A DNA stretch of 6,186 bases from a bacterium (GTDB taxonomy: Bacteria > Joyebacterota > Joyebacteria > Joyebacterales > Joyebacteraceae), in assembly GCA_025774935.1 (NCBI GenBank), contig JALGZK010000038.1:1-6186 (forward strand), read 5' to 3'. A program made the position numbers and the translations under genes. The notes beneath the pieces are model-generated. The model had not been told where the DNA came from, searched no databases, and worked only from the letters and a program-made list of their open reading frames with translations. Shown in pieces: positions 1,759 through 4,043 of this stretch (positions are counted from its first letter, which is position 1; every line of letters begins with the position of its first letter).

Positions 1759-2797
1759 ATGAACGACACGAACCGCAGGCCGGACCGACCCTCCTACAAC
1801 TCCGCAGGCGTCAACATCGACGCCGGCCAGAAGGCCGTGGAGCTCATGAAGTCCGCGGTCCGTTCCACCTGGAACGACGGCGTCCTGGCGAAGTACGGCT
1901 CGTTCGCCGGGCTCTTCAAGCTGGACGCTGCCGATCGAGGCGGTGACGTCCTCGCCGTCACGATCGACGGGGTCGGGACGAAGCTCAAGGTCGCCGTCAT
2001 GTGTGAGCGCTACGCGTCGGTCGGCATGGACCTCGTGAACCACTGCACGAACGACCTCCTCGTACAGCGTGCGACACCTCTGCTCTTTGCCGACTATTTC
2101 GCGAGCTGCGCGCTGGGCCCCGAGATCGTTGCCGAGGCCGTGTCGGGCATGTCGGAAGCCTGCCGGGCTGTCGACTGTGTCCTCATCGCGGGGGAGACGG
2201 CGGAGATGCCCGGGGTCTACTGCGAGGGCGAGATCGACCTCGTCGGATGCATGATTGGACTCGCGCAGAGCAGCGACGTCATGGACACGCCGGCGGTCAC
2301 GCCCGGAGACGTTCTGATCGGGCTTCCTTCCACCGGGCTCCATACGAACGGGTACTCGCTCGCGCGACACATCCTGTTCCACGAAGCGGGGATGTACGTC
2401 GAGACTCGCGTGCCCGAGCTGGAGGGCACCTTGGGCGAAGAGCTCCTCACGGTCCACCGCGAGTACCTGACAGTCCTCAGACCCCACCTCGGCAGCAGGC
2501 GCATCCACGGGCTCGTCCACATAACAGGCGGCGGGTTCTTCGACAACATAGCGAGGATCCTGCCGGACGGATGTGAGGCCGTGGTCCAGAAGTCCTCGTG
2601 GGATCCCCTCCCCATCTTCAAGCTGCTCGTGTCGCTCGGCGATCTCCCAGACGAGGAGGCCTATCGGGTCTTCAACATGGGAATCGGGATGGTCGTGGTT
2701 GTGGATAGCGACGCGGCGGACGATCTCCTCGACGAGTTCAGCGCACCCTCTGCGCCTGCCGTGGAGGGTGGGGGAGGCAGGAGTGGTTCTGGCGTAG
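1759..2797 (+). CDS. purM: Phosphoribosylformylglycinamidine cyclo-ligase (AIR synthase), frameshifted near the 3' end
   Basis: PurM converts FGAM to aminoimidazole ribotide with ATP, the fifth step of de novo purine synthesis, in the cytoplasm as a dimer. Recognisable blocks are YNSAGVNIDAG (13-23), DGVGTKLK (70-77), FADYFA (110-115), AGETAEMPGVY (144-154; the first Ala is usually Gly), GLHTNGYSLAR (193-203), HITGGGFFDNIARILP (254-269) and FNMGIGMV (305-312). The frame that starts at 1759 is good up to about residue 329 (DDLLDEFSA). It then becomes an 88-residue low-complexity tail ending at 3012 that does not look like PurM. One frame over, bases around 2750-2797 read LPWRVGEAGVVLA then TAG, which matches the usual PurM ending (A-W-R-I-G-E-x-x-G-x-V). 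Joining the two gives about 345 residues, the normal family length. The span 1759-2797 is 1039 bases, one more than a multiple of three, so one extra base between about 2740 and 2757 (for example in the CCC at 2746-2748) explains it. I give the restored span; the uninterrupted reading frame runs 1759-3012. Confidence 0.9.
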
Positions 2798-2830
2798 TTG
2801 CTTGCTGCCGAGCTCGATCAGCCTTCCGTA

Positions 2831-2861
2831 GGGCCCCTGTGAGACTCCTCCACGGGGGTCC
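2831..2861. terminator. Strong hairpin after purM, possible two-way terminator
   Basis: An 11-base-pair stem (arms 2831-2841 and 2851-2861, with two G-T wobbles) encloses a nine-base loop. It lies 34 bases past the restored purM stop, between convergent genes, where a shared terminator would be expected. No T-run follows on either strand, so intrinsic termination is uncertain. A structured 3' end is the alternative. Confidence 0.35.
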
Positions 2862-2926
2862 TGTCGTTCCGGGAGCGTCGCCCCGGGGCACGCGGCTCCG
2901 TTGGCTCGGGTCAGTGGATGGAGTCG

Positions 2927-2949
2927 TTTTGAATCCCGTTGGGGACGCC
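2927..2949 (+). other. tRNA 3'-end-like scrap (possible remnant or integration scar)
   Basis: TTTTGAATCCCG followed by TTGGGGACGCC resembles the T-loop, T-stem 3' arm and acceptor 3' strand of a tRNA. A possible acceptor partner, GCGTC-GCCCC, lies at 2875-2884, about 75 bases from the 3' end. A D-arm-like stretch (GTCAGTGGATGGAG) is at 2909-2922. However, the T-stem 5' arm does not pair, no anticodon arm fits, and CGG replaces CCA. It is not a working tRNA. A decayed tRNA or an integration footprint is possible, and so is chance. Confidence 0.2.
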
Positions 2950-2992
2950 GGATACGGCTCCCTGCGTCGGACGTACTCAGGACCGCTAGCAC

Positions 2993-3045
2993 TTACCTGT
3001 ACTGCGCCTTGACGCCGCCCCAGGCGGTATCGAGTTCTCCATTCC
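2993..3045 (-). other. Out-of-frame C-terminal tail (WGGVK motif) just past the small secreted gene
   Basis: Directly downstream of the TAG of the 3046-3300 gene, in the -1 frame, the - strand reads NGELDTAWGGVKAQYR and then TAA (2993-2995). The end of the neighbouring P-domain protein reads SSWGSVKGIYR then stop, sharing W, G, V, K, Y and R in register with the stop. This looks like the original C-terminus of the small secreted protein, cut off by the loss of one base near 3046. Coding in this form is inferred; the sequence shows only the motif and its position. Confidence 0.5.
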
Positions 3046-3300
3046 CTACTGACATGGACCACACGAATCGCCGTGTTCGAGATGGGCAGCGGCGGCGTCA
3101 ACGCTCACCGTGAGAGTGCGGGAGTTGTCGGGATTGCCGGGCGGTCGATGGCAGATAGCCACAAACCCGTCACCGTCTTCGTCCGCGCAGCCGGCAGAGA
3201 TGTCCTTCGATCCTCGAGTCTCACATGGCGCGCAGCCAAGTCCGCAACAGAGAACACAGAGGGCTGCGAGGGTTGCCGTGAGAGCCACATAGCGCTTCAT
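3046..3300 (-). CDS. Small secreted Cys-rich protein with CHRPPGNPDN...HGDxxGPC module
   Basis: The product is 84 residues from the ATG at 3300; an in-frame upstream start 13 codons earlier lacks a ribosome site and would spoil the signal peptide. Residues 1-23 form a signal peptide (MKRY, then a hydrophobic Ala/Leu/Cys core). GLGC at 20-23 could be an imperfect lipobox, so a lipoprotein is possible. An acidic DEDGDG loop (40-45) resembles calcium-binding loops. The segment CHRPPGNPDN (50-59) to AHLEHGDSCGPC (72-83) matches a module I recognise from surface and secreted bacterial proteins, where it typically reads CHxPPGNPxNxxT...AHLxHGDxxGPC. Its biochemical role is unknown to me. There are nine cysteines, suggesting an exported, oxidised fold. 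The gene ends right after the module, but a tail with a neighbour-like motif continues in another frame (2993-3045), so the present stop may result from a frameshift. It lies 77 bases downstream of the P-domain gene on the same strand, probably co-transcribed. Confidence 0.75.
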   Translation of the reverse strand: MKRYVALTATLAALCVLCCGLGCAPCETRGSKDISAGCADEDGDGFVAICHRPPGNPDNSRTLTVSVDAAAAHLEHGDSCGPCQ

Positions 3301-3306
3301 TTCCCG

Positions 3307-3313
3307 CTCCTTT
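3307..3313 (-). promoter_or_regulatory. Ribosome binding site (AAAGGAG) of the small secreted gene
   Basis: On the - strand AAAGGAG lies six bases before the ATG at 3300. This decides the start against the longer in-frame option beginning at 3339. Confidence 0.75.
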
Positions 3314-3377
3314 CTATTGGAACGCCGCCTCGACCGCATCAGAGCTGACCTCCCTCATGGGGCCCGATGGTCCGGGG

Positions 3378-4043
3378 CTATCGGTAGATGCCCTTCACGC
3401 TTCCCCAACTCGACCGCTCGACGGGCGTGTCCTCGTAGAGCAAGCTCACTTCCCAGAAGGGCACCTCGCCTTGATCGGACAGGGCCCCGTCCGCGCCCCA
3501 CAGCCAGAAGCACCCGCCCGACGGCAGGCCGTCGAAGACGCTCAGACCGACGCTGTCGTAGTCCGGCGCGTAGCAGTCAGTCGGTATCTCCCCGACGGGG
3601 AACTCCTCGATGGAGGTGGAAGCGGCGTCATCGAAGGTGAACCACCCGTCCAGCCAGGCCTCGTGGCCGCAGCAGCCATCCGGCGGGCATCCCTCGAGCC
3701 CGGGGCGACAGAGCACCTGGCCGATGACGTCGGCCAGGCCGTCGCAGTCGGTGTCGTAGAGGAGCCACAGTCTGAGATCGCCGATGTACGTGTGGTCGAT
3801 GTCCGCCGAGAATATGACGTCTTCGATGGTCTCGCCGTCAGGCGTCTGGATGGGACCGAAGACCACGCCGGCCGGATCCGCGTCCGGTATCACGCCGCCG
3901 ATGTGGCTCAAGGTCACGAAGTTCTCGTTGCCACAGTGCTCGCGCATCGTGCTCACGGTGGCGCCTCCGCTCTCCTCCACCCGGGCCAGCGCCGTGCCCG
4001 CAATGAGCAGGCAGGCAGCTGACAGCATCAGCATTGGTCTCAT
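3378..4043 (-). CDS. Secreted P-domain-like (proprotein-convertase P-domain type) protein
   Basis: The product is 221 residues from the ATG at 4043. Residues 1-20 (MRPMLMLSAA, CLLIAGTALA) are a Sec signal peptide ending in an A-L-A cleavage site. The mature part reads as one beta-rich domain like the P-domain that follows many subtilisin-type and other secreted proteases. The marks are IDHTYIGDLRLWL (82-94), FTFDDAASTSIEEFP (135-149), LSVFDGLPSGG (167-177) and WLWGADGALSDQGEVPFW (180-197). DTDCDG (98-102) resembles a metal-binding Asp loop. The mature protein has eight cysteines (37, 100, 112, 119, 124, 125, 157, 178), consistent with disulfides outside the cytoplasm. No protease domain is attached, so a stand-alone binding or structural role is inferred; its partner is unknown. 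It ends in SSWGSVKGIYR, a candidate C-terminal tag (see findings). The in-frame start at 4121 was rejected because it precedes the signal peptide and lacks a ribosome site. The 3046-3300 gene follows on the same strand. Confidence 0.8.
   Translation of the reverse strand: MRPMLMLSAACLLIAGTALARVEESGGATVSTMREHCGNENFVTLSHIGGVIPDADPAGVVFGPIQTPDGETIEDVIFSADIDHTYIGDLRLWLLYDTDCDGLADVIGQVLCRPGLEGCPPDGCCGHEAWLDGWFTFDDAASTSIEEFPVGEIPTDCYAPDYDSVGLSVFDGLPSGGCFWLWGADGALSDQGEVPFWEVSLLYEDTPVERSSWGSVKGIYR

Follow-up and report, generated by a model that had tools for sequence, protein, structure and literature searches.

Two peptide endings of the form W-G-x-V-K-x-x-Y-R-stop lie on the minus strand of the 6,186-nucleotide stretch analysed here (the window), and raise the question of whether they are copies of a signal by which this lineage sorts its exported proteins. 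The original prediction placed both at the ends of genes for secreted proteins and suggested that they might be a lineage-specific tag for sorting, processing or anchoring. Both copies are present exactly where they had been reported, among the following features:

3378..4043, minus strand: gene carrying copy 1, with its ATG at 4043, encoding an exported protein of 221 aa from a family of unknown fold
3984..4043, minus strand: predicted Sec signal peptide of that gene, MRPMLMLSAACLLIAGTALA, called from the sequence with a heuristic
3378..3428, minus strand: complete tag, copy 1, TPVERSSWGSVKGIYR-stop, with the core WGSVKGIYR-stop at 3378-3407, which fits the logo of the 67 copies in the genome
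3046..3339, minus strand: small secreted ORF of 97 aa with the hydrophobic N-terminus MKRYVALTATLAALCVLCCGLGC, probably the former or frame-broken owner of copy 2
2993..3022, minus strand: core of copy 2, WGGVKAQYR-stop, with the extended reading GNGELDTAWGGVKAQYR, stranded and out of frame

Copy 1 ends a gene whose frame could be extended upstream to 4121 and whose product has homologs of 47-82% identity in related genomes; comparison of orthologs from other genomes of the phylum shows that the ending is kept. The product had been called a P-domain protein, a label that found no backing in Pfam (E<=10) or in the PDB, whether searched by sequence or by profile (10 homologs). Inspection by eye shows no more than a HTYIGDL-like signature, the protein has no Pfam, NCBIfam or PDB match, and an AlphaFold2 model run without an alignment reached a mean pLDDT of 31.

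Copy 2 had been taken for the C-terminus of the small secreted ORF, which in fact stops earlier, at 3048-3046, after ...HGDSCGPCQ. The frame of copy 2 is one base off relative to this upstream ORF (a -1/+2 shift) and extends for 34 codons only, back to its own upstream stop, with no signal peptide; the statement that both proteins carry signal peptides thus holds for the copy-1 gene and fails for copy 2. Among 20 related genomes of the phylum none has a clear ortholog of the small secreted gene, the only hit being a partial match of 34% identity in genome G016. A frame break, through mutation or an assembly error in this 6.2 kb contig, appears likelier than an independent short gene, because nearly all other copies in the genome end real genes for exported proteins. 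The ORF of purM (1759-3012, plus strand) runs into copy 2 on the opposite strand; its match to TIGR00878 stops at residue 329 of 417, its natural end is apparently lost around 2745 and its last ~85 residues look out of frame, possibly through a frame break or assembly error. Since purM also seems to have lost its end, this short contig may be decaying in part or contain errors of sequencing or assembly.

Beyond these two copies, the motif recurs among the exported proteins of the genome, as the original prediction had anticipated. Searched as a DNA pattern, W-G-x-[VIM]-K-x-x-[YF]-R-stop has 67 exact matches in the genome of the window (3.24 Mb, 40 contigs). The reversed pattern has none in the same 3.24 Mb, and 200 dinucleotide-preserving shuffles of the window produced no match (mean 0.00, largest 0); these controls rule out a chance origin. 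Among the genomes compared, which are draft MAGs, the motif is found in all 20 of the window's phylum (13-67 matches each) and in 76 of 80 from a second phylum, that of genome G044 (1-27 matches). Outside the window's family, a stricter pattern had matches in just 15 of 366 bacteria. A pattern tightened once more, run independently over 84,980 GTDB genomes, returned 67 stretches, and all of those with a named phylum belong to Eisenbacteria, Krumholzibacteria, Effluviviaceae or, in one case, Gemmatimonadota. Eisenbacteria and Effluviviacota have been placed together (PMC11323493), and the window's genome probably lies close to them.

The 67 copies from the genome itself and 89 from named contigs give a consensus of about 16 residues, [ST]-P-V-E-x-x-[ST]-W-G-x-I-K-[AGS]-[LM]-Y-R-stop, in which P, V and E each occur in 51-73% of copies although they are absent from the search pattern. 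All four codons for Gly, six for Arg and every one of the three stops occur among the copies, and the Tyr codons vary as freely; this choice of codons indicates selection on the peptide and not a repeated DNA element. The position is strictly C-terminal except for four near-terminal copies followed by 1-9 extra residues. Relaxed forms also exist, among them a final YK, WS for WG and, in orthologs, WT for WG. A functionless DNA repeat, or an ending inherited within one paralogous family, could account for the tandem paralog clusters found among the tagged genes (for example, L074 and L076). However, the synonymous variation, the strict position, the 39 unrelated body families that bear the tag and its conservation in distant phyla leave this explanation with next to no credence, and conservation at the level of the peptide refutes it.

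Some 70-90 exported proteins of the genome that are otherwise unrelated carry the tag, corresponding to about 2-3% of its genes. To relate it to export we used heuristic gene calls on about 1 Mb of the genome (690 genes), made up of stretches centred on tag sites and 15 stretches picked regardless of tags. With the relaxed motif, 67 of 70 closed tagged genes encode a signal peptide against 230 of 570 untagged genes (odds ratio 33, p = 9e-21), as scored by a home-made rule that accepts about 40% of untagged genes too; the contrast is therefore probably conservative, and the tag is not equally frequent on cytoplasmic proteins. When the strict motif and the absence of any other membrane helix were required, the counts were 51 of 59 tagged and 174 of 581 untagged genes. 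At independent loci in other genomes, 59 of 70 and 18 of 24 tagged frames have a signal peptide. For eight of 66 tags in the window's genome no signal peptide could be detected in the frame, which is mostly a broken one; the exceptions inspected in this genome are mostly broken or truncated frames, and two belong to a family with an in-frame TGA that is described below.

The proteins that precede the tag are varied, with right-handed beta-helices in 11 of 67 and MAM-like, starch-binding, cohesin, lamin-tail, plastocyanin-like and other domains in the remainder. The NCBIfam domains choice_anch_V and choice_anch_J terminate a few residues before the tag; 'choice-of-anchor' domains, as their name implies, are found with one or another C-terminal anchor depending on the lineage. 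In genome G011, a homolog of the window protein has an extra domain of ~110 residues inserted before its end, yet still finishes with TWGNIKALYR, and in another tagged family one paralog terminates right where the tag would start.

Altered endings were also seen at single loci. At L214:1078-2295 (minus strand; G011:C177), a homolog of the window protein adjoins a tagged paralog and is itself tagless, a natural case of loss. A paralog of the window protein at L212:1270-2256 (minus strand; G000:C36) continues for several dozen residues past its tag, TSWGKVKAQYR, as though a stop were missing. The secreted protein encoded at L088:9104-9967 (plus strand; G000:C22, ~55.1-56.0 kb) has a degenerate terminal tag, PVNERTWSGIKALYGP, with two stops; ~65 codons downstream in the same frame lies another tag, HATWGSIKALYR, which is intact but stranded like copy 2 of the window.

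The genome of the window also encodes type A C-terminal domains (CTDs) of the type IX secretion system (T9SS), with 43 of 44 C-terminal regions matching TIGR04183 (L060-L185) and 43 of 44 matching FlgD_ig. As a positive control, the T9SS CTD models (TIGR04183 / PF18962) recovered 43 of 44 and 40 of 44 untagged CTD proteins. No T9SS model is among the Pfam or NCBIfam families of the 67 tagged proteins, which sets them apart from type A cargo; nor does any family that Pfam or NCBIfam (June 2026 release) lists for these proteins model the tag. The literature covered by our search, outside which lie preprints and most subscription journals, holds no description of the motif and no study of T9SS in these phyla. 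C-terminal sorting tags as such are known; to our knowledge, a helix-free one of ~16 residues is new.

While the tag is a peptide of ~16 residues and the type A domain an Ig-like fold of ~100 residues, the two have much in common. Both are C-terminal, follow many unrelated bodies of Sec-exported proteins and occur in genomes that encode SprA. The last residue is basic in 87% of tagged and 93% of type A proteins against about 19% of other genes; tags in the strict set end in Arg, and those in the relaxed set mostly in R or K. The two endings also alternate on the same body families within one genome: homologous beta-helix proteins end in either the tag or a type A domain, as seen for L081 (tag) and L185 (CTD), which are 39% identical over about 310 aa (E 6e-58). 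They are mutually exclusive, with 66 proteins carrying the tag only and 46 the CTD only; the one overlap is an artefact of the regular expression. The type A domains are found on larger proteins, with a median of 636 aa compared with 235 aa for the tagged ones.

This interchange, the choice-of-anchor bodies and the retention of the tag behind an inserted domain lead us to read it, with high confidence, as a C-terminal sorting signal of some kind for Sec-exported proteins. The lineage-specific tag of the original prediction is upheld to that extent, and its biochemical role would be as set out below.

Genomes that bear the tag also encode the T9SS translocon. SprA (PF14349) was found in 21 of 22 genomes tested, nearly all of them tag-bearing, and in 67 of 80 genomes of the second phylum; the remaining 13 all match the full-length profile TIGR04189, two very incomplete genomes weakly. 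The tag and SprA could thus not be dissociated: genomes lacking a match to the N-terminal model match the full profile, and among the 22 and 80 genomes no adequately complete tag-bearing genome is clearly without it. C25 (PorU-like) peptidases are present in 22 of 22 genomes tested, with 26 copies in the window's genome. No recurrent shuttle partner stood out in the neighbourhood of SprA or among the immediate gene neighbours of the tags, where a count made without a formal test returned no shuttle class, only tags adjoining tags.

T9SS CTD proteins have been described as restricted to Bacteroidota (PMC10202324, a 2023 review). The abundant type A CTDs, SprA and 26 C25 peptidases seen here belong to what appears to be a non-Bacteroidota phylum, and are of note against that description.

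Reported T9SS signals range from ~100 residues (type A) to 235 (type B) (PMC12618676), and more than one signal class, each with a different shuttle, is known for the system (PMC12618676, PMC10202324). Type B signals and their PorP/SprF shuttles are a precedent for a second class with its own shuttle (PMC12618676); however, they comprise 150-235 residues and are usually encoded beside the shuttle gene, whereas the tag is far shorter, which counts against a T9SS role, and has no shuttle class among its neighbours. On balance we favour, at about an even chance or slightly better, the reading that the tag is a short cargo signal of T9SS, alternative to the known ones and served by a lineage-specific shuttle, and place an independent receptor or enzyme next. 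The link to T9SS is drawn from co-occurrence and from the interchange of endings, as the findings include no receptor or dedicated enzyme; the basic last residue common to the tag and the type A domain may in addition reflect a single reader.

In the pathway that we propose, tagged proteins would reach the periplasm by means of a Sec signal peptide, and a lineage-specific outer-membrane receptor there may read the free C-terminal peptide through its Trp-Gly, amphipathic IKxLY and terminal Arg. This putative receptor would move the protein across or onto the outer membrane. The likeliest path is type IX secretion, for which these genomes encode the SprA translocon. On that reading there would be two kinds of cargo signal, the ~100-residue type A domain and the short tag, the latter probably passed to a PorV/SprF-like shuttle of its own. 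Recurrence over the genome, C-terminal position, association with signal peptides, modularity, interchange with type A domains and co-occurrence with SprA are direct observations. A receptor for the tagged proteins, their transport and any cleavage or anchoring are hypothetical.

The tag also resembles the GlyGly-CTERM, PEP-CTERM, MYXO-CTERM and LPXTG tags, being a short signature with a basic end on dozens of unrelated exported proteins of one genome, choice-of-anchor bodies included. Those tags are tripartite, with a motif, a transmembrane helix and a basic cluster (PMC3237569, PMC11980579), and GlyGly-CTERM was recognised by the logic that we apply to the tag (PMC3237569). In contrast, the motif described here ends at the stop with no helix after it: a membrane helix is absent from the last 35 residues, and the maximum 15-residue hydropathy has a median of 0.47. 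The original prediction was right to distinguish the motif from LPXTG, PEP-CTERM and the long T9SS domain.

Rhombosortase, exosortase and myxosortase are enzymes that act on their own tags, and a phylum-restricted enzyme or outer-membrane receptor might likewise anchor, cleave or modify the tagged proteins independently of T9SS. Consistent with such a separate pathway are three genomes that have SprA and no match to the tag (G064, G066 and G101), the many-to-one pattern over 39 body families, the choice-of-anchor domains before the tag and its dissimilarity to every listed Pfam or NCBIfam model. The helix-free tail is unlike sortase-type tags, however, and the tag-bearing genomes of adequate completeness among those tested all appear to have SprA, so that we consider this pathway rather unlikely. 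The broader proposition of a sorting system spread over several phyla, in which a helix-free tag of ~16 residues has a reader distinct from the known sortase-like and T9SS readers, is a tentative one that we rate a little higher.

The tag might instead be a non-covalent docking motif with no role in transport, its amphipathic C-terminus binding a surface scaffold or a membrane leaflet. The W..IK.LY spacing would fit an amphipathic turn with a basic end, and the last residues tolerate change, as a docking peptide might: the endings YD, YQ, YRE and YRP and a few extra residues were all found. However, homologous bodies exchange the tag for a T9SS transport domain, and the basic C-terminal residue common to both points to transport; we regard docking as improbable.

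Two known C-terminal signals were considered and rejected. The BAM beta-signal ends in an aromatic residue and belongs to beta-barrels, while the tags end in Arg, or mostly R/K in the relaxed set, and follow beta-helix, choice-of-anchor and other non-barrel bodies. The ssrA tag added by tmRNA has a different predicted sequence here, ADYQPAYVC, and the motif is encoded in the genes themselves. The tmRNA, predicted by ARAGORN at L075:10063-10421 (minus strand), is unusual in that its tag is without the usual terminal AA.

Several machines for secretion or anchoring, among them sortase, exosortase, rhombosortase, myxosortase and T9SS, were discovered by way of C-terminal sorting signals. Present on about one gene in every few dozen and in at least two phyla of uncultured bacteria, the tag predicts which exported proteins these bacteria sort further, probably to the surface. 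As a T9SS signal it would be far shorter than those known and would show the minimal needs of the translocon; otherwise, there is a new machine to be found. In either case it gives annotators an immediate and highly specific profile.

In one tagged family, two paralogs that are 39% identical and one ortholog share an in-frame TGA, at a position that aligns in all three:

G000:C1:449047-449781 (L060:9048-9782), plus strand: paralog
G000:C21:36721-37320 (L084:5722-6321), plus strand: paralog
G002, L034:931-1530, plus strand: ortholog

No tRNA-Sec was seen in the ~1 Mb sampled of the window's genome. Coding is conserved on both sides of the TGA (...GYGFG-TGA-GPFSM... and ...GWGIG-TGA-NAVPT...), which suggests UGA recoding, perhaps as selenocysteine, or readthrough in an exported protein.
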